A DNA stretch of 64,000 nt, taken from NCBI RefSeq assembly GCF_002836515.1, contig NZ_PJBC01000065.1, forward strand, positions 310,001-374,000, in the 5' to 3' direction. Below, piece after piece: positions 5,932 to 16,499 of this stretch; position 1 is the stretch's first letter; the number at the start of each line of letters is the position of its first letter. The notes under the pieces were generated by a model. That model was not told where the DNA came from. It saw only the letters and a list, made by a program, of their open reading frames with translations, and made no database searches. This DNA is from Pseudomonas sp. Choline-02u-1. Its GTDB lineage: Bacteria; Pseudomonadota; Gammaproteobacteria; Pseudomonadales; Pseudomonadaceae. The position numbers were made by a program, and so were the translations under genes.

Positions 5932-6666
5932 TCATACACTGATAACTAGGTCTGGCCGAAATCCAGTTTGTTCAGAGGGGTAACCACGAGGATTACTCAC
6001 AAACCGGACGCCATTAACCACCTCATCCACGGCTTCGTGGGTATGGCCAAAGATCCATAGATCGATCTTAAAATCCATCAGGCCATCCCAATTGTTGCCA
6101 TACGCTGCTCGCAAGTGAGGATCGGCTCCTTGGTCGCTCACGAACTTCATAAGGGGCGGATGGTGAGTCACAACTACACGCTTACCGTTGAATGGCACCG
6201 ACAGCTGGCCCTCCAACCACTCCTTCGTCTCTCGATTTCTCGCGATCAGATCATCAGGGCGCAAACGCCGATACTGTTCACCGACACGGATTGCGCGAAA
6301 GTCATTCAGTGAGTTACGAGCGCACCAAGAAGCAGCTACTGGGTCTCCGGTCGCGGCCAGGCTCGTCCAACCCGTAGCGCAGAGAAACTGCACGTCACGG
6401 TGTTCTAAAACCTGATTTTCCAAGACGTGGACGTGCGCCTCAGCAGCGTCAAGCAGCTTGCTGTGGGTTCGATCTATATTCCCGCTGTAGTGCTCATGAT
6501 TGCCCATGGCATATATGACAGGCGTGCTGAAGGTCAGGCTGGCCCATCTAGCCCCCCTGGACTTCACGTGGATGTCACCGGCTAATACGACCACGTCACA
6601 GTCCACCACAGGGGGGACGAAATCGGCGAACTCACAATGCAGATCAGACAGTATATGAAGCTTCAT
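5932..6666 (-). CDS. Calcineurin-like metallophosphoesterase
   Basis: This 244-residue cytosolic metallophosphoesterase has the full set of metal-binding blocks in order: SDLHCEF (residues 7-13), AGDIH, GNHEHY, THHPP and GHTHE. Enzymes of this fold hydrolyse phosphomono- or diesters using two metals; the natural substrate here is unknown. Short forms like this are common as single genes in bacterial accessory regions. The start is the ATG directly before KLHILSDLH, the canonical N-terminus for the fold. Confidence 0.88.
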   Translation of the reverse strand: MKLHILSDLHCEFADFVPPVVDCDVVVLAGDIHVKSRGARWASLTFSTPVIYAMGNHEHYSGNIDRTHSKLLDAAEAHVHVLENQVLEHRDVQFLCATGWTSLAATGDPVAASWCARNSLNDFRAIRVGEQYRRLRPDDLIARNRETKEWLEGQLSVPFNGKRVVVTHHPPLMKFVSDQGADPHLRAAYGNNWDGLMDFKIDLWIFGHTHEAVDEVVNGVRFVSNPRGYPSEQTGFRPDLVISV

Positions 6667-6843: not shown

Positions 6844-7320
6844 ATGCAGAACGAGATAGCAGCAATAGTCCGAGCTCTGCGCGACCTGAGAGGATCAGCT
6901 CAGGAGGAGCTTGCCGAGATCAGTTCCCAAGCCAATCTGTCACGATTGGAGCAAGGGAAAACGCAGGTCTCTTTGGTCAAGCTGAGCAAGATCGCGCGCA
7001 CCCTGGATTTCGACCTCGTGGCTCTCGTCGCGCTATGTCAGGCCCTCCAGGATGGGTCATCACCTATCGATGTCATGGCGAAGGCTTCAAAGGACTTGGA
7101 AGGCTTCGTAGCCCAGGGAGGCTTGCAGGGCCTGAAGAGGCATTGGGACGCTGGTGAAGGGCTGGTGAAGCGCACGCGAGGCAAACCCAGCAGCCCAGAT
7201 CGAATCCGGGCAGTACTAGAGCTCAAGGCCAGTGGCATGTCGAAGGCGGAGGTGGGTCGAGCGCTGGGGTTGCCTGAAGCGACTGTCAGGCGTTACTGGC
7301 TCAAAGAACTGCCTGGCTAG
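6844..7320 (+). CDS. Two-HTH DNA-binding protein (XRE-type N-terminus)
   Basis: This 158-residue protein has an N-terminal Cro/C1-like HTH (about residues 5-65, with SQANLSRLEQGKTQ and LVKLSKIARTLDFDL) and a separate C-terminal HTH resembling resolvase or transposase reading heads (about 115-155, SPDRIRAVLELKASGMSKAEVGRALGLPEATVRRYW). A charged linker joins them. It is the only rightward gene between the PadR-type gene and the core chromosome, divergent from the metallophosphoesterase. It is probably a transcriptional regulator; its targets are unknown. Confidence 0.75.
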   Translation: MQNEIAAIVRALRDLRGSAQEELAEISSQANLSRLEQGKTQVSLVKLSKIARTLDFDLVALVALCQALQDGSSPIDVMAKASKDLEGFVAQGGLQGLKRHWDAGEGLVKRTRGKPSSPDRIRAVLELKASGMSKAEVGRALGLPEATVRRYWLKELPG

Positions 7321-7372
7321 AAAGGGAGTTGTGGGGTGAGAGCAGAGAAGCTCTCCACTTTTCCAATTCGAT

Positions 7373-8569
7373 TTAGCGCGGCGGCAGATCCGTGAAGCGC
7401 AGCCGGGGATAGATACGCCTTTCCTCAGCGCATTTGGAAATCTGCAAGAACGCTGACAGCAGTGCATCTTCCGAAGGGCAGTGGCGGGTCATGACCTCGA
7501 ACTCGTTGTAATCGAAGGCTAGGACACGAATTCCGACCTCATCCATGAATTTCAAAATCATGGCGCTGTATTCATCGTAGTTGTCGATAAAAAGCTCTCT
7601 GACCACGACAACTCCCACCAGGGGGCGTGCAGCAAGATCAATGTCCAAGGGCGTGCCGTCCACAAGCGCTAAGGCTGGATTGCCTTCTCGCCTGATCGTT
7701 GAGATGGCGCCACGTAGTTGCTGCAGGCCGTTCTTCAACTGACTTATGGCCTTCTTTCGCTTTCTCTCAAGCGTTGTGTTCATCATTGCTGGCGTATTGG
7801 GACTGTCCTTCGCCTGCAGCAGCAAAGTCACTTCATCGCCCATCACCACTACGTCAGCCAGCTCCTCGCCATCGGAGACCTTCAAGGGGCCATGGATGAT
7901 CCGCTCGGAGGTGTATGCGCGCTGGAGCAGATAGATGATGTCCAACTCCTGAAACGTGCCCGGTTCAATGCGCTCCAACTGTGTATTGGAGAAGCCTTTA
8001 GAGCCTCGAAAGTCCTGGCGGGTCAGGTCGGTGATCAAATAGTCCGAGGGGAACAGATCATCCTGTAGGAACACCGTTGTGGCACGAGCGTCGGCCTCAT
8101 AGGTCGTGAGGCTGAACCAGCTGTCCGCCTGCTCATACATCTTGGGCCAGTGATCTGCTCCAATGGGGCTGAGTGTACCGACCTCCTTGCGGAGCTGACC
8201 AAGCTTCGCCTGGGCCTTACAACTGAACAGCTCGCGGTTGTGCTCGTCGAAAAAGCACACGCTGAATTTGTCAGGGAAGCTCTGCAGTGCTTCTGTGAGA
8301 GGGTCACCAGGGATGAGTGGGGTTTTGATCAATAGCGGACATTGTGGGTCATCAAAGCAGGCTGTGAGAAGCGTAAGCCCCGTCGTTTCGTCTGCCTTGT
8401 ATGGCGCGAGGTAAAGCTTCAATTCACGCCTTTGCTGAGCGGCCAGGATCAGCTCTTTCCCGGCCTTGATTACCAGCACGAAGCCTTCAGGGCCCTCAAC
8501 GATCCATAATCCACGGGCTAAGACAGCGATTTGCTGAAGCGCTTGGGGCTTCATGATCGTGAGGTACAT
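7373..8569 (-). CDS. Uncharacterised protein with a PD-(D/E)XK-like motif
   Basis: I do not recognise this 398-residue protein as a named family. Residues about 235-254 read EELADVVVMGDEVTLLLQAKD, matching the nuclease-fold pattern E..D-x(12)-(E/Q)xK with Asp239, Gln252 and Lys254. It is followed by a basic helix rich in Arg and Lys (about residues 268-275) and an AISQLKNGLQQLRGAI helix, as in restriction-endonuclease-like proteins. There are no transmembrane segments. The start at 8569 was chosen for its strong AAGGAG site 5 bp upstream; the longer frame has none. A DNA-cleaving or defence role is possible but unproved. Confidence 0.65.
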   Translation of the reverse strand: MYLTIMKPQALQQIAVLARGLWIVEGPEGFVLVIKAGKELILAAQQRRELKLYLAPYKADETTGLTLLTACFDDPQCPLLIKTPLIPGDPLTEALQSFPDKFSVCFFDEHNRELFSCKAQAKLGQLRKEVGTLSPIGADHWPKMYEQADSWFSLTTYEADARATTVFLQDDLFPSDYLITDLTRQDFRGSKGFSNTQLERIEPGTFQELDIIYLLQRAYTSERIIHGPLKVSDGEELADVVVMGDEVTLLLQAKDSPNTPAMMNTTLERKRKKAISQLKNGLQQLRGAISTIRREGNPALALVDGTPLDIDLAARPLVGVVVVRELFIDNYDEYSAMILKFMDEVGIRVLAFDYNEFEVMTRHCPSEDALLSAFLQISKCAEERRIYPRLRFTDLPPR

Positions 8570-8701
8570 GTGAACTCCTTGGCGGTTGCCTGATTGCGTC
8601 CTGCATAACCTTAAGCCTAAAGCGATGAAGCGAGGCCTAGACTTGGCATTCAACATCCCCATCCTGGCCAACCAAAATTGGCTAGCCAGGCATCCACTCA
8701 G

Positions 8702-9535
8702 TTAGATCGATACAGGAGCGGGGATGTGAGGATGTGGGTCATAGCCCACAATCTCAAAGTCTTCAAACTTGTAATCGTAGATGCTGTCTGGCTTACGCTT
8801 GAACTGCAAATTAGGTAAAGGACGCGGATCACGAGTCAGCTGCAGCTTAACTTGCTCGATATGATTCAAGTAAATATGCGCATCACCCATGGTAACTACA
8901 ACTTCGCCAACTCCCAAATCGCACTGCTGTGCGAGCATATGAGTTAAAAAACTAACCCCAGCCAAGTTGTAGGGATTGCCAAGCAGTAGATCTGACGACC
9001 GAATATATAGATGCGCCGACAACTTATTGTTGGCCACATAGAATTGATAGAGCAAATGGCATGGTGGCAATGCCATTTTCCCGTTCCGAGCATTCTCTTG
9101 TGGGCTCACCGACTCATCGGGAAGGTACTCGACGTTCCACCCGTGGAAGAGGATGCGACGGCTGTTCGGGTTCGTCTTGAGCGTGTTGACGACGTAGTCG
9201 ATCTGATTGATGGTCTTGCCGTCCTGGGTAGGCCAGGCCGTCCACTGCTTGCCGTAGATCGGGCCGAGGTCACCGTCTTCGGTTGCCCACTCATCCCAGA
9301 TGCTGACACCATGCTCCTTCAGCCATTTGGTATTCGTGTCACCATTCAGGAACCAGATCATCTCGTTGATGATGCTCTTGAAATGCAACTTCTTGGTGGT
9401 GAGGAGCGGGAAGCCATCCTCCAGGTTATGGCGGAATTGGCGACCAAAGACACTCAGCGTGCCGGTGCCGGTGCGATCGCCTTTCTCGACGCCATTCTCT
9501 AGCACGTCGGCCAGCAAATCGTGGTACATCTTCAT
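8702..9535 (-). CDS. thyA: Thymidylate synthase carried by the island
   Basis: This complete 277-residue thymidylate synthase converts dUMP to dTMP using methylene-tetrahydrofolate. It has the Arg loop (DRTGTGT), the catalytic Cys in [29 protein letters not shown], and GDAHIYLNH. It resembles the shorter E. coli-type enzyme rather than the longer native pseudomonad form cut at 15,795. Its ATG overlaps the ginD stop by 4 bp, so it is the fifth gene of the recombinase operon. Its 3' half is visibly more AT-rich than its 5' half. A second in-frame Met (residue 3, MYHDLL) could be the true start. It probably replaces the disrupted host enzyme. Confidence 0.96.
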
Positions 9536-10038
9536 TTCGGTTCCTCAAGGTTCGCGCTGACCAAATCCAGTGCGTCACGCAATTTCAAAATTTCAGTATC
9601 TTGCTCTTTGATCTTCTGACGCAGCCCATCTGCGAGCTGGACGTAGTAGTCCCTGGACTCGCGGACAGTGTCCAATCTCTTGTCGAGCGTGGCACAAGAG
9701 TTCTCAGAATCCTGATACCTATTGAACCAATAAAGCACTTCCAATCGACTCTTTTCAAGGCGTTGCATCAGAATCGTCTTGGGATCCTGTTTCTTCTCAG
9801 CCTTGACCCTCTGAGCGAGCACTGCAATGCGGCGGTTGTCCTTGATCGCCTCAAGCCGCTGCGCCGGGAAGTCACGCTGCCGAATAGTGTTGCGATGAAT
9901 GCCTGTGATGCGGCTCAGCTCCGCCATCGTCGGCTTCAAATTCGGATCAGAGGCAATCTGCATAAGCCCCTGAGCCAGCAGCTCAGTGTTCCGGTCGTAA
10001 TCGAGCTTATTTTTGGCATCAAACGCCTGGCCTGTCAT
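9532..10038 (-). CDS. ginD: GinD-like small HTH/coiled-coil protein
   Basis: This 168-residue protein has an N-terminal HTH (about residues 36-58, [20 protein letters not shown]) and a long heptad-rich C-terminus (about 85-160), likely a coiled coil. It is the fourth gene of the recombinase operon, overlapping ginC by 4 bp upstream and thyA by 4 bp downstream. In GInt elements the fourth protein is a small predicted HLH/HTH protein required with the three integrases for insertion and excision; TnpC of Tn554 has a comparable place. A role as an accessory DNA-binding or bridging protein is inferred. Confidence 0.78.
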
Positions 10039-12116
10039 ACCTCAACCTCCTCACCCAGATGCTCCAAAACACCCTTGGCCTCTTCCATCGCCGCCCTCAA
10101 CTCTTCCTCCGCACCTGCAGAATTTGGAGAGCTCAAGGCCAAGCTGTTTTGCACATAGATCTCCCGCCATTTAGGGGCATGAGCCTTGGTGACCACGGCG
10201 TTTTTGCACCGGTTCGGATTGCAACGCAGCGATCCGATGCAGGGAAGAGACTCATCGAATACCTCCCGCTGACCGCCGTAGCAGAAGCCTTGTCCCACAT
10301 TGATGATCGCCATGCGCTTCTTGGCCATCTGGGCGATAATTTGCTCTTTGGTGTAGCCAGCCGCCATGTACCCGCTGAACACCTTCTTCATCCTCGCCTT
10401 ATGGCTCTCAGCATTGGGGCCAGCGTAGTTTCCGTCAGGATCGCAGTAGCTCTGGATGTACTCCTCGCCTGCCAGTTGCGTCGGGGTCTTGCCCGAGGAG
10501 CGCCCACCCTTGGATAAGATTTCGGCGATCGCACCATACCCAAGCGTCACCGCACTGAAGGCCTTGTTCTGACCCGCCCCACCGATGAGGTCACCGAAAT
10601 GCTTCAGCTGATGTGAGATGAACGGGAGTCCAAGCTCAGCCCTAGCCATCTGGTATGCCAGCGTGTGCCGCAACGTGTATGGCGAGAACTCCAGAGCTTC
10701 AAACTCCTCGTCCGTCAAAATCTCCTCAAAAAAAGCTTTGAACTGGTGAGAGATACCAAGAGAGGTCATTGACCTAGCTTCGGCTCCCTGAGCGACGGTA
10801 TCCACATTGGAGAACAAGTAAGGGTTCTGCTTCACCTTAGCGATGAAACAAGCAGCACGAATAGCATCACGAACGATAGGAATCGCGACCCACTTGTCGT
10901 CGAACAGTTTGGCCAAGCCTTGGCGGTGTTTGATCACATTGCTGATAAGGAGCCAAAATTCGCTCTCTTGCTCCAAGCACGACTCGACCAGGATCTCAGA
11001 GAGCTCTGAGGGCCGCATGCCGGTGTACTGCGCCACGAGATAGCAGGCACTGTACGAGACGAAATTGATGTACCTGCGGAAATCATCGTCCAGCCTTGAA
11101 TCTGTGAGTTTGAGTAATGTTTCGATCGCCTTAAAATCATGCCGACCAGAGCCAGATTGGAATGTAGGTGAAACGCAGCCAAAAGCTGCGGACAGTGCAT
11201 CCGCCATCGCACCGGAGTCGTAGCCTGTTCTCCGTAGCCTCAGCGCTACGTACAACTCGAAATTGTAACGCGACAGCTCTTGAGCGTTGGCCAGCGAGTA
11301 ACCGCTGGCGTTTTGGCGGGTCAGGGCTACCAAGTCAGCTACAGGCTCCCCTAGAGTGCTAAGGAAATCGACGACTGCGAACGACGCCTCGCGAGAAGCC
11401 TTCTCGAACACATCGTTCGGCAGAATACGGTATGTGCGCTCGGATTCAGGGACGTGCTTGATTACCTTGGCCCAGGCCAGCGACTCCAGCTGAACGTAAG
11501 GCAGTGGCTCTTCGAAAATCTGCTCCTCGAAAAATGGCGACCTGACCAAGGTAAAGAACTTCTTGAGATCAGGGCCAAAGGCGTAGGGATGAATGAGCGC
11601 TGCCTCCCGATACATGCCCGCGTCGAAGTACGTCAGACCATGGTGTCCAACCTCAAAGAACTCATCCGTCATCAACTGACGCGCTTGCCCTGACATCGTA
11701 TCCAGGAAGCTCAATCCAGCCTTCATGCATGAAATGGCGGTGTTGGCCTTGATGTTCCTTGGCGAGGCAAACGAGCGCATTGCCGCCGGCATCTTCAGCC
11801 AGCAATACAGGGCCACCTTGACCTCCAAGACTGCCGACTGATTGAGCAATGGGTACGATTCAAAATTGAGCCGTAGCTTGGCTCCTTTGACGTTCCTGGC
11901 GGCGTTCGGATGATCGTCATTGAAGTCCCAGACGGCGTCGCCCAAGACCGATGTCTTGCTGACAGGCAACGCCATCAGCGCCTGGTACCAAGAGAGTGCT
12001 TCCAGCGACACAGGAATCGGATCGGCGATGTTTCTGCGCAACTCAAGCAGCAGGGTGTGAGCAGCTATACGCCACTGTTTGTACGCCGCGAGTTCAGGGA
12101 TCAGAGCGTAGTTCAC
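10035..12116 (-). CDS. ginC: GinC-like large tyrosine-recombinase-family protein
   Basis: This 693-residue protein has a C-terminal phage-integrase domain: Arg368 in YTGMRPSEL, Arg483-His484 in SPYTLRHT, His506 in QLKHFG, and a candidate nucleophile Tyr527 in TLGYG. The first His of HxxR is Tyr480. After the catalytic part a Cys-rich stretch ([19 protein letters not shown]) may bind zinc. The long N-terminal region is unassigned. It overlaps ginB and ginD by 4 bp each, indicating coupled translation of one recombination complex. Confidence 0.82.
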
Positions 12117-14461
12117 AGCGTTACTCCCTCGGTCAAAATACTGACCTGCAGGTTTTCAGAGAGGCGCTCAGCGTTGGTCAGCTCTTCTGCGGAAAAGTCC
12201 GATGTCTCAGAATCTAGAAGGTTGTTGAGCACATCAAGGTTGTCCAGGATGACGGCTCCGTAGGGCGTATCGAGCACCCGGTTGACCTCAATCATCCTTT
12301 GGTAGTCGCGCCGCATGGCGAAGAGCTCCGGCAGGTGCGAGACCGTGATGATGCTGTTGCTGCACGAAAGGCACTTGTTGAACAGCGTACATGGCTTGCT
12401 GGGGTCATAGCTTGCCAACGCTTTAATGAAAGCCGGTGGGTCAAAGACGTTCATGCAGGTTGCCAGGCCAGACCGCAGCGGCATCGCTTCTGGCGCGGAC
12501 TCGATAGTCTTGGTCGGGATGAGCTTCGAAGCCTCCTCCAACGTGTCTTGCTGCATTTGGTGAAGAACCTTATTCAGCATCCGCCGCGCCATGGGGTTGA
12601 AGTCCATCTGATCCAGATAGGCCATGGTGGTACTGAGGCTTTTATGGCCCAGGAGCACTTGAATCTCGCGTGGGGAGACGCCGCGCTCGATCAGTTCACT
12701 CACGAAGCTTGGTCGGAAACGTGATGGTGAGAGCTTGAGAGGATTGCCGTCTTCATCAAGCAGACCATGCTCCTCAGAGAGCTTCTGTAAAGTGTTGTGC
12801 AACATGTTTTCGCCAGAACTTTCAAAAGACTTCACCACGCCATACATCCTGGAAGCACTCGACCGGTAGATGAAGAGCTTGTTCTGGACTTCGACGGGAG
12901 CATCCAAGCGAATCTCACGGGTCAGAAACTTCACATCGTCAAAGATCTGCTTGACCGCACGGCCTTGAGAGGTGGTCAGCCAAGAGATCTCCGCATGAAA
13001 AATATCGAGATGAAGCACCTTCGCGCCTTCAGAACGCTCTTTCCAGTACAGCAAGCAAGGGCGATCGGTTAAATCATGGCGCTCCATGAAGTCATCTAGC
13101 TCCAATCCCAGCAGCGAGTCAGTGTTCATGCCGGTAACTTGGGCAAGCCGAGCTATGTAAGGTGTAATAGCTCGACTATTAACCTGATAATGCACACCCC
13201 AGTTTTTATAAATGTCAAATATTGAAATTGACGAAGTCGAAACAATCGACATAAACGCTCGTTGATATGGGTCATTTCGACGTACAGATTCGAAACCCAA
13301 AGGTTTACAGTCGAGTTTGTTTTCAAAAATCCAACGAGCGTTTTCGAGCGTATTAAAACCTCGGCGCACCCTACCGTCAGAGTTTAATGGGTCTTCCCCT
13401 TCATAGCTTGGAACGTAAGGCTGGGCCAAGCGATTGTTTTCCTCAATCGCTTGCTCAATGACCTGAGAAATTCGGGTGCGCACAGCCTGGGGATAGGGCT
13501 TGTACTGGTCAGTTTCACGTTCAGCATCGAATCCCGCAGCACCGACGAAACTGGTCAGCCCCAGGCCCTCGATTTGGACTGCGCGCGCCATCATTTTCCG
13601 AGCAGCGCTCATCATCGAATTGCTGTAGCCGGTCGACAGCGAACGCTCAAGAATCTTGTCTTGGAGATATACCCTGAACTTTGGAAGGCTGTAGGGAGTT
13701 ACGAGCTCCCGAATATCCTCCAAGCCTGTGTAATTGGCCTCCTTGAGATACGTTCGGTAATATCTGAAAGCCTCAATGAAATTCGACTGCCCTGACGCGC
13801 TACTGCTCTTCATTGATGAAGCGCTGAAGAGGTGCAGCAGGTGCTGGAACGGACGCTCCGCTTCCGAGCTTGTGAGGTCGGATAGGCGATGGATGCGGAC
13901 GGAGCGCAAGGCCTGGAAGGTGTCTCGCAATGATTCAGTCTTTTCGACTGCCACTTTTGAGGCAATACGCTGCTCGACGGTTTGGTAGTTTGACTTGAGA
14001 ACACCAAGCTCACGAAGGTCATTGAGGATCTCTTCATACGTGATCCGCACCAGTTCAAATTTTGTCCTGGCCGCACTGAGGCTGGCCAACGCAGGGATCT
14101 CGCTAAAAAAACCGCGTTCCTTGATTCCATTGCCAAAGGTAGGAATGGCAAGTTTCTGTTCTGTGGGCATTCCTTCATACCAGTTGAGCAGCCGGCGACG
14201 CCAATCGCAGGCGGTAGATGAATGACCAGCGACGATGATTTCCTCAGCACGCATCGCATCAAGAATCGGTTCAAAGCTTGAGACACGCTTTGAGATAGTC
14301 CTTAGATTTAAACTGGTTTGTTCGGCTACGTAATAAGGGGCCACCGCCAAAACTTCCCCCACACTGAGACAGACCTCCAGCAAAGACTCACGATCATCAG
14401 TGACGCGTGCCACAAATGACTCAATGACAGCGTCTACCTGAGCGCTAGTCAGCCGACTCAT
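12113..14461 (-). CDS. ginB: GinB-like large tyrosine-recombinase-family protein with altered active site
   Basis: This 782-residue protein has an integrase fold at its C-terminal half. The catalytic set is incomplete: where GxR is expected it has GMN (Asn446), and HxxR is SRFR (Ser580, Arg583). LLGH (605-606) and Tyr615 are kept. A Cys-rich tail (CMN, then [13 protein letters not shown]) follows, as in other large recombinases of multi-recombinase elements. It may be a structural or DNA-positioning subunit in a complex with GinA and GinC. It has 4-bp overlaps at both ends within the operon. Confidence 0.82.
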
Positions 14462-15705
14462 TTCATATCTCCCGCATCAATTCTCAGGCGCGTCTGTTGG
14501 GATAGCTCAGCCATCTCGCCTGCTTTCGTCTTGGTTCCAGTTCCGGGGCGTACGAGCTTCTGGTAGAGGTCGTAGGGGATCTGGGTATAGGTTTCCGAAG
14601 TGCTGAGGCGCGAGTGACCCAGCGTCTTTTGCACGGTCACTAGCCGGTCAAGGTAATCACTACCAATGTCTGGCGTCCTCAACAGGGCATAGGCGTTACC
14701 GTGCCTCAACTTGTGGGGAGAGATCATCCTGTCGATTTTCAGCAGGTTCAGCGCTCGCTCGGATGTGCGCTCCAAGAGCTTGGAGATAGAGCGAGGGGTG
14801 TACTCACCCCCCTCCGCATTCAGGAAAGCAGGGGTGTTCTCAGCCCCCTTGAATTGACGCTTAGTCATTTTGTACAGCGGCGAAGCATGGTACTTCTTGA
14901 TACGCAGGAGCGTGGCGCGGCTGACCAATGTCTGGCGGGGCTTGAAGGAGTCCGCAGGGCCTTTGCTTCCATCAATGTCCAGCGGGCAGTAGTCCGCGTT
15001 CACCGGTTCTGCGACACCAGGCGAGATGAACAACGTGTCCTGGAATCGAAGGGCATCATCGATGGCCTTGAGGGTCACTCGCGGGACTTCAGAGCGGCGC
15101 ACGCCTGCGTCGTACATGAACTGGAGCAAGCAGCGCTCTCGCTCACTCTGCGTACCCAGGATGAGCTCTCTGAGATCATTCAGGGAACAGGCCACCACCA
15201 GGTTCTTATTAGGACGGGGAGATAGGTACCCGGCAGTGTAGGGGTTAGGCGCGGTACGAGGCGCGGGCGAGTCGTCCACTCCCCGGCACAGAGAATCATT
15301 GAAAAACGCCATCAAGGATGAATCCCGGTTGCGCACCGTCTTCTTAGAAAGCTCCTCTTCCTCGCGCAGGTGAGCGAAGTACTCCTCGATCACGTGGGTG
15401 CGGATTTCCAAGAACGCTGAGTCACGCTCGCAGTCACGAAACTCACGGCGATTCATCAGGTACTCGCAGGTGTACCCAAGGTTGCGACCATAGGTGATGG
15501 CCGTCTGCTGGGATATATAGGCTTTCCGGAGCGCGTGGGACAGATAACCCGAAATCAAAGGCATTAGGCGCTCATCATCATCAAAGACGGCTGTCCCTGT
15601 GACGTTCACGGCTTCCTGAATTGGGGATTCTTCGGATGGGTCGTCCCGCCTGGTTGGGGACTCTCTGAAATCTAGGGGGGTGCCCCTAACTGCGATGACC
15701 TTCAC
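14458..15705 (-). CDS. ginA: GinA-like tyrosine recombinase
   Basis: This integrase (about 415 residues from a GTG at 15,705) has all catalytic motifs: Arg in AGVRRSE (about residues 203-204), HKLRH (331-335), GH (363-364) and nucleophile Tyr373 in TSETYTQ. A core-binding SAM-like domain lies at about residues 45-140. The start was chosen because the open frame further upstream crosses the insertion junction and reads antisense-like sequence, while GAGG lies 5 bp before this GTG. It is the first gene of the leftward gin operon, starting about 135 bp inside the element end, and probably supplies strand-exchange chemistry. Confidence 0.85.
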
Positions 15706-15840
15706 GGCTTCCTCTCTCTTCAAAGCGGCCCGTACTATACACAATGTGCATTTCGTACTGGGGCACAATAATGAGCTTGGAAGGTAAAGCCTTACTACGC
15801 AGCCATTGCGTAATGTGCAGGTTCTTCGAGGGGGTATAAA
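15706..15840 (-). promoter_or_regulatory. Island right end: junction, palindrome and gin promoter region
   Basis: The thyA match ends at about 15,840. Between it and ginA lie a perfect inverted repeat TACGCA-GCCAT-TGCGTA (15,796-15,812) and, on the minus strand, a spaced AGTACG direct repeat around a TGTGTATAGT stretch with a plausible -10 (TATAGT). Such elements are expected at an attachment core and recombinase-binding arms, and the operon promoter must also lie here. Exact att limits cannot be set without the other end. Confidence 0.5.
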
Positions 15841-16499
15841 AGGCCCAGATCGTTGGAGCGGATGTAGAGAGTCAGGGAGATTTCTTTGGTCTCGACATTC
15901 GGGTGGAACTGATACAGCAGGTGGCACGGCGGCAGGGCCATTTCATCGAGTTGGGCGCAGTTCCAGCCGTGGAACAGAATGCGGCGGCTGCCCGGATCCT
16001 TGATGATCGTGTCGACGCACTGGCGCACCTGATCGATCGCCTTGTACAGCACGACGTAGGCCTGGCCGTCTTCTTCGCCCTGAGCGATCTGCTTGTAGCC
16101 ATTGCTCAGGGTTTGTTCGATGGCGGCCGTATTGCTCAGCGGGATCTGCTTGTACGCCGGCCATTTACGCCACTGCACGCCGTAGATTTCGCCGAGGTCG
16201 TCGTCGCCCTGACGGAACGGGTTGGCCAGCCACTGCGCGTTTTCGTTGGCGTTCTGGTCCCAGACCTTGCAGCCCAGCGCGCGGAATTCAGCGGCGTTGT
16301 TCACGCCACGCAGAAAGCCGCACATCTCGCCGATGGCCGATTTGAAGGCCATTTTGCGCGTGGTGATCGCCGGGAAGCCTTCCTGCAGATCGAAACGCAG
16401 CATCGCCCCCGGGAAACTGATGGTGTTGATGCCGGTGCGGTTGGCCTGCTTGGTGCCGTTCTGAATGACGTGCGAGACCAGTTCGAGATATTGCTTCAT
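15795..16499 (-). pseudogene. thyA: Native thymidylate synthase gene, 3'-truncated by the island
   Basis: The frame begins [11 protein letters not shown] and follows a pseudomonad ThyA through the catalytic Cys ([11 protein letters not shown]) to [10 protein letters not shown]. It then runs into about 14 foreign residues ([14 protein letters not shown]) and a stop. The expected protein is about 320 residues, so some 90 C-terminal residues are missing, including the conserved Asn and the DAH.Y block that bind dUMP. It is almost certainly inactive. It follows lgt in the same direction, the usual pseudomonad lgt-thyA order, which identifies it as the original copy. Confidence 0.95.

Follow-up and report, generated by a model that had tools for sequence, protein, structure and literature searches.

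The window, by which we mean the entire stretch of 64,000 nucleotides of Pseudomonas sp. Choline-02u-1 that was analysed, holds a gene for a putative stand-alone nuclease on its minus strand, with an ATG at 8569, a stop codon at 7373-7375 and 398 codons (Table 1), in agreement with the open reading frame of the initial annotation. The gene occurs once in its own genome. Inspection of the sequence revealed AAGGAG a short distance 5' of the ATG, and no sigma-70-like site was found within 7300-8800. The gene had been described earlier as lying alone beside the gin operon, which needs correction: an intact thyA gene on the same strand separates it from the gin genes. Comparison with six relatives gave dN/dS values of 0.06-0.20, the two lowest of which belong to the most distant relatives, where dS exceeds 2 and is near saturation; with a seventh relative dS was saturated. 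The ratio is low for the N-terminal and the nuclease domain alike, and the gene is under purifying selection on both.

Table 1. Features of the nuclease gene and its surroundings (positions in the window unless a contig is named)
Feature	Position	Strand	Basis
Metallophosphoesterase gene, same cargo block as the nuclease	5932..6666	-	ORF list, locus comparison
Convergent helix-turn-helix gene, also next to the nuclease gene in the nearest relatives on islands	6844..7320	+	ORF list, locus comparison
Putative stand-alone nuclease gene (398 aa)	7373..8569	-	ORF list; 97% identical copies elsewhere
Predicted PD-(D/E)XK nuclease domain, FokI/BspD6I-like, residues ~198-398	7376..7978	-	AlphaFold2 model, Foldseek, VIA-align
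Putative catalytic segment E208 ... E236, D239, Q252, K254	7808..7948	-	Residue census, 47 relatives
Predicted N-terminal domain, residues 1-134	8168..8569	-	Own model, Foldseek, VIA-align, residue census
Island-borne intact thyA, directly upstream of the nuclease	8702..9535	-	ORF list, comparison with relatives' loci
ginD, ginC, ginB, ginA recombination operon (ginA start uncertain)	9532..15927	-	ORF list, locus comparison
Resident thyA, 5' part, interrupted by the island	15795..16499	-	ORF list, thyA match
Resident thyA, 3' part	G000:C1:293563-293871, outside the window		thyA match

The carrier of the gene is an island of ~32 kb. A GInt, in the definition applied here, is inserted into a target site and has the ginABCD operon at one end, an AT-rich 3' end and imperfect direct repeats on its flanks (PMC5385486). 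The island has this operon at one end and is inserted into a target site, the resident thyA gene: pieces at 15831-16499 match residues 1-188 of the island ThyA, and C1:293563-293871, ~32 kb from these 5' pieces, matches residues 185-276. Since the resident thyA is split, a gin operon is present and the island has a thyA of its own, we conclude that the nuclease gene is cargo of a GInt-type island. The insertion lies at about codon 188 of the resident gene, and a complete, different thyA (32-58% identity between the island ThyA and the split pieces) follows directly after ginD, so that the function destroyed by the insertion is replaced. The main text of the GInt paper does not mention thyA (PMC5385486). 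The loci of five relatives (L002, L005, L006, L007 and L009) likewise show, past ginA, an additional thyA match that is partial. The opposite end of the island, which lies outside the window (L131:2509-6734; G000:C1 ~295.5-299.7 kb), carries genes for an ATPase, a DNA adenine methyltransferase and, judged by eye, a ParB-like protein. The ATPase and the methyltransferase are similar to a gene pair near the relative L047 (24% and 51% identity, respectively), and the group is possibly a further defence module.

The initial annotation had taken the pattern E..D-x(12)-QxK as a sign of a PD-(D/E)XK fold and had proposed structure prediction and a fold search, both of which point to that fold. The AlphaFold2 model of the full-length protein, for which an alignment of 24 sequences served as input, had a mean pLDDT of 87.9 and a pTM of 0.87. 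In the Foldseek comparison of this model with the PDB the top five rows were all Nt.BspD6I entries, with a probability of 1.00 and E-values between 2.0e-3 and 3.7e-3; FokI was found with a probability of 0.90 (E 1.6e-2), and no E-value was as low as 0.001. In VIA-align, Nt.BspD6I reached Z-scores of 11.8-12.1 (169-171 residues, rmsd 3.6-4.2), the small subunit of R.BspD6I 11.4 and FokI 10.6-10.9. The next best was Cdn1 (Z 8.6), and the lower rows included Can2, SduA and NucC at Z 6.0-8.1, where values below 8 may reflect merely a common arrangement, as well as Card1, EndoMS and a Holliday junction resolvase. Among viral models, restriction endonucleases were found in the top Foldseek rows (E 5e-3 or worse), and a sequence search of solved structures gave a best E of only 0.33. 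The model thus gives good support for a PD-(D/E)XK fold in residues ~200-398, with the cleavage domains of Nt.BspD6I, the R.BspD6I small subunit and FokI as its nearest counterparts.

A census of 47 distinct relatives, from which the truncated or broken L038, L041, L058 and L068 were omitted, found E208, E236, D239 and K254 in all 47, among them the two residues (Asp239 and Lys254) whose lack of conservation would, according to the initial annotation, have spoken against a nuclease. D255, Q284, G287, E325 and F327 were invariant as well. The motif in the window protein, E236-x2-D239-x12-Q252-A-K254, is judged not to be a chance occurrence, because E236, D239 and K254, like E208, are invariant in the relatives and the predicted fold is a nuclease fold. 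Position 252 is Q in 45 relatives and E in the other two, so that QxK is the counterpart of the classic (D/E)xK. Judged from the alignment, the metal-binding acids and the lysine of the PD-(D/E)XK superfamily are intact in the protein and conserved in the family. The likeness to Nt.BspD6I, the R.BspD6I small subunit and FokI concerns the nuclease core (Z 10.6-12.1, 151-171 aligned residues), with an acid in the first helix (E208 here) followed by D239 and Q252-x-K254; judging by their entry titles, the matched BspD6I structures include E418A and D456A mutants. Identity to these enzymes is 6-9%, however, they have (D/E)xK where the window nuclease has QxK, and residues 1-134 matched none of them.

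Residues 1-134, when predicted by themselves (pLDDT 88.4, pTM 0.81), form two helices, after which strands (E) and helices (H) are arranged as E E H E E E H E E H, and in prediction they are a separate domain that folds independently. No convincing match was found in the PDB (best Foldseek E 0.27, best VIA-align Z 2.9), which is no proof of a new fold. The earlier statement that the N-terminal 200 residues match nothing thus stands for residues 1-134, since it is these, not residues 1-200, that were compared as a separate domain. Seven of its residues (K35, D73, D74, P78, F107, D108 and E113) are conserved in 44-47 of the 47 relatives, which suggests a putative binding site. When the domain was used as the only query against viral contigs, 18 loci were found, 14 of them on contigs found before. 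Three of the four new loci also encode the nuclease domain and the fourth (L068) goes out of frame near residue 210 and terminates at 235. Among these 18 loci, then, no fusion of the domain to any other effector was seen.

Scans of the window protein against Pfam and PADLOC assigned it to no family. Its sole NCBIfam match, to ribosomal protein L29 (E 0.2), was taken as chance. Shedu is a defence system of one gene, whose protein (SduA) combines a PD-(D/E)XK nuclease with another domain. SduA reached Z 7.4 over 149 residues, below BspD6I and FokI and perhaps only a common arrangement, and the window protein matched no PADLOC family, among which we assume a Shedu model to be included. Neither the window protein (at E <= 10) nor any other protein of its own genome matched GapS1 (NCBIfam NF047931, cut-off 320 bits), and this candidate was set aside. 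One of 22 family members gave a weak match to it (E 0.63), and in hhalign 136 columns of the nuclease part aligned (E 0.0068, probability only 5.6%) with the N-terminal part left unaligned; the two nuclease parts may be distantly alike. NERD (PF08378) was weakly matched by four of the 22 members (best E 0.012, not significant) and PADLOC PDC-S23 by one (E 0.023), the former without a match to the window protein. PHROG 30399, to which no function is given, was matched by 16 of the 22 (best E 1.2e-13) though not by the window protein itself, and on these alignments it is probably the same family. We found no description of the family in the titles and abstract openings in PubMed Central, preprints held elsewhere being beyond the reach of that search. 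We take the protein as the member of a family that is new but whose kind is familiar, a defence-type nuclease joined to an unmatched domain.

A scan of GTDB genomes yielded 13 close relatives (74-97% identity), with copies of 97% identity in Pseudomonas ceruminis and P. lundensis; a P. putida plasmid also has a copy of 97% identity. In a sample of the genus, 28 of 398 genomes had a match: the own genome, 23 with relatives of 31-97% identity that align along their whole length or the greater part of it, and four with short or weak matches (L038-L041). Outside the genus the family is rare: two of 369 genomes matched in the class sample, one of them the own genome, and two of 398 in the phylum sample searched with an alignment, both from within the genus. 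Among 72,556 plasmid records four had the nuclease (one from Pseudomonas, three from alphaproteobacteria), and tblastn found it in none of 50,697 phage records. Viral contigs of IMG/VR gave 16 matches in an alignment search, none with the single protein as query and four more contigs with the N-terminal domain.

The window protein belongs to a clade of island relatives. We found gin genes and an island thyA in the window, in L002, L003, L005, L006, L007, L009 and L013 (here ~6 kb off) and on the plasmid L043, but not in L004, L010, L011, L012 and L014, L008 being too short to judge. The survey of neighbourhoods proposed in the initial annotation thus places a gin operon beside several of the close relatives, not beside all. 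In the window, L002, L003, L006 and L043 the nuclease gene comes immediately after the gin-thyA block and shares its strand, as might be expected of a nuclease that serves the GInt itself in excision, integration or replication. This role is extremely unlikely, since relatives live outside GInts, in P2-like prophages, on alphaproteobacterial plasmids and at loci with no gin genes in reach; moreover, it is ginABCD that is named as essential for GInt integration and excision (PMC5385486). The gin genes of L005 are 44-49% identical to those of the window and its nuclease 95%, indicating that the cargo block (nuclease, helix-turn-helix gene and metallophosphoesterase) moves between different GInts. 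In two relatives (L004:9462-10001 and L087:8204-8770) the same block adjoins a broken yifB-like gene (named by eye), and no gin or thyA genes lie within range, which points to a different type of island or a different site of integration.

Another setting was found in P2-like contigs. In ten distinct ones the nuclease gene lies by itself, antiparallel to the flanking tail genes, between two genes that we take to be baseplate gene V and tail-completion gene S; Pfam P2_Phage_GpR and Tail_P2_I were matched among the neighbours. In eight further contigs the same interval measures 535-3289 bases and has other open reading frames inside, so that it behaves like a slot for variable cargo. In L117-L122, L124 and L125 these frames are varied and mostly antiparallel, and some look by eye like what we presume to be AbiV and DUF2971 proteins. 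Antiviral hotspots are known in P2-like phages of E. coli (PMC9122126), and one of them lies between the replication endonuclease and the portal gene (PMC12629846), a place that differs from the tail-gene slot.

The initial annotation had pointed out that islands often carry defence genes in such a position. This holds for some distant relatives, which lie near defence genes or in the prophage slot, and not for the window or the matching plasmid island, where the cargo adjoining the nuclease consists of metal resistance and housekeeping genes; the link to defence therefore rests on the wider family. At an E of 1e-10 or better, 148 neighbours of 27 loci matched 347 PADLOC models and 116 control proteins matched three, a contrast that is inflated by many models fitting one protein and part of which the setting in mobile DNA may explain, the control regions having been chosen without a screen for mobile DNA. 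The 27 loci were chosen as representatives, with the P2-like copies mostly omitted save L077 and L081. Neighbours were frames of at least 120 amino acids from a mechanical caller, 204 in number, of which 189 were left once similar ones had been removed and 148 were scanned; proteins of at least 1100 amino acids and frames past the third on each side were dropped. The controls (206, reduced to 196 and 116) came from other places in 20 genomes that hold a relative, some loci being unevenly represented.

Twenty neighbours that looked like probable defence genes on inspection were scanned singly, a choice that does not allow a rate to be measured; four had no PADLOC match. These scans found Gabija genes (GajB near L047 and L085, GajA and GajB 4-7 kb from the nuclease of L089), Septu genes (PtuA and PtuB near L048, PtuA near L085), a CBASS cyclase and phospholipase near L076, bSEFIR near L044, type I restriction genes including their own M subunit near L045 and the candidate systems PDC-M38A (L078) and PDC-S28 (L079), with partial matches to Hp2 (L010) and weaker partial ones at L080 and L074. 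In one subclade a second, ~425-aa gene that looks nuclease-like by eye was observed after the nuclease gene, at L058:9144-10384 (cut by the contig end), L074:8832-11458 and L075:7575-10204; that of L074 gave only partial capP/RmrA matches in PADLOC, in its second half. Enzymes of this fold class act in repair and recombination too, as the EndoMS and Holliday junction resolvase rows illustrate, and the gene might be another kind of prophage or island gene (for a toxin, DNA repair or regulation) that lies among defence genes by chance. We regard this as very unlikely, in view of the patchy distribution in the genus and the recurrent nearness to defence systems. A good part of the loci, on prophages, plasmids and islands, lie near defence genes, and from this neighbourhood we infer a role in defence.

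The closest structures are those of type IIS enzymes, and the protein could be a type IIS or other type II restriction enzyme that depends on a DNA methyltransferase. Two kinds of methyltransferase genes were sought at 38 loci and found at four (L047, L048, L050 and L080), 3.5-9.4 kb off, and in the own island the DNA adenine methyltransferase, which with the ATPase beside it resembles the L047 pair, lies ~19 kb from the nuclease. At none of the 38 loci does such a gene stand directly beside the nuclease, which sets the family apart from BspD6I and FokI, and none is named among the 33 annotated features around the plasmid copy, where the gene table is incomplete. We consider such an enzyme less likely, indeed quite improbable, although the four loci with methyltransferase genes make it slightly more favoured, and a nuclease that acts without one slightly less so.

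The best explanation, which we hold to be reasonably probable, is that the gene, cargo of a mobile island, encodes a nuclease that acts as a single protein against phages (or plasmids) in the manner of a restriction enzyme. E208, D239, Q252 and K254 would bind Mg2+ and hydrolyse DNA. FokI-type domains pair to cut both DNA strands, and two chains of the window protein would likewise form a dimer that cuts both. The N-terminal domain might sense a feature of the invader, be it a protein of the phage or a modification, an end or a structure of the DNA, and this recognition would license the cutting of invader DNA. The fold and the neighbourhoods are equally in line with an effector of abortive infection, in which the N-terminal domain restrains the nuclease until infection triggers degradation of the host DNA and death before phage release; NucC, Can2, Card1 and SduA, which stand further down the fold list, belong to the defence effectors. 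By eye, however, no partner gene for a signal maker or an inhibitor is kept beside the nuclease across the family, and only sub-groups share neighbours: the island clade has the helix-turn-helix gene and the metallophosphoesterase, and L058, L074 and L075 have the ~425-aa gene. Because no antitoxin or partner gene is kept, a single-protein system is likely and cutting of the invader is preferred over self-destruction, which we regard as unlikely.

The more specific form of the preferred explanation, an undescribed family of single-gene anti-phage systems spread by P2-like prophages of Pseudomonas, GInts and plasmids, in which a new type of sensor domain (residues 1-134) steers a FokI-like nuclease and neither a methyltransferase nor a partner protein takes part, has in our view nearly an even chance of being right. 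Single-protein defence nucleases must distinguish self from invader unaided, by means that are for the most part still to be worked out. The family offers a well understood cutting domain together with an N-terminal domain that is predicted with confidence and is compact enough for biochemical and structural studies. Two cargo sites where more defence genes may be sought also emerge, one downstream of thyA in GInts and the other between two tail genes of P2-like Pseudomonas prophages.
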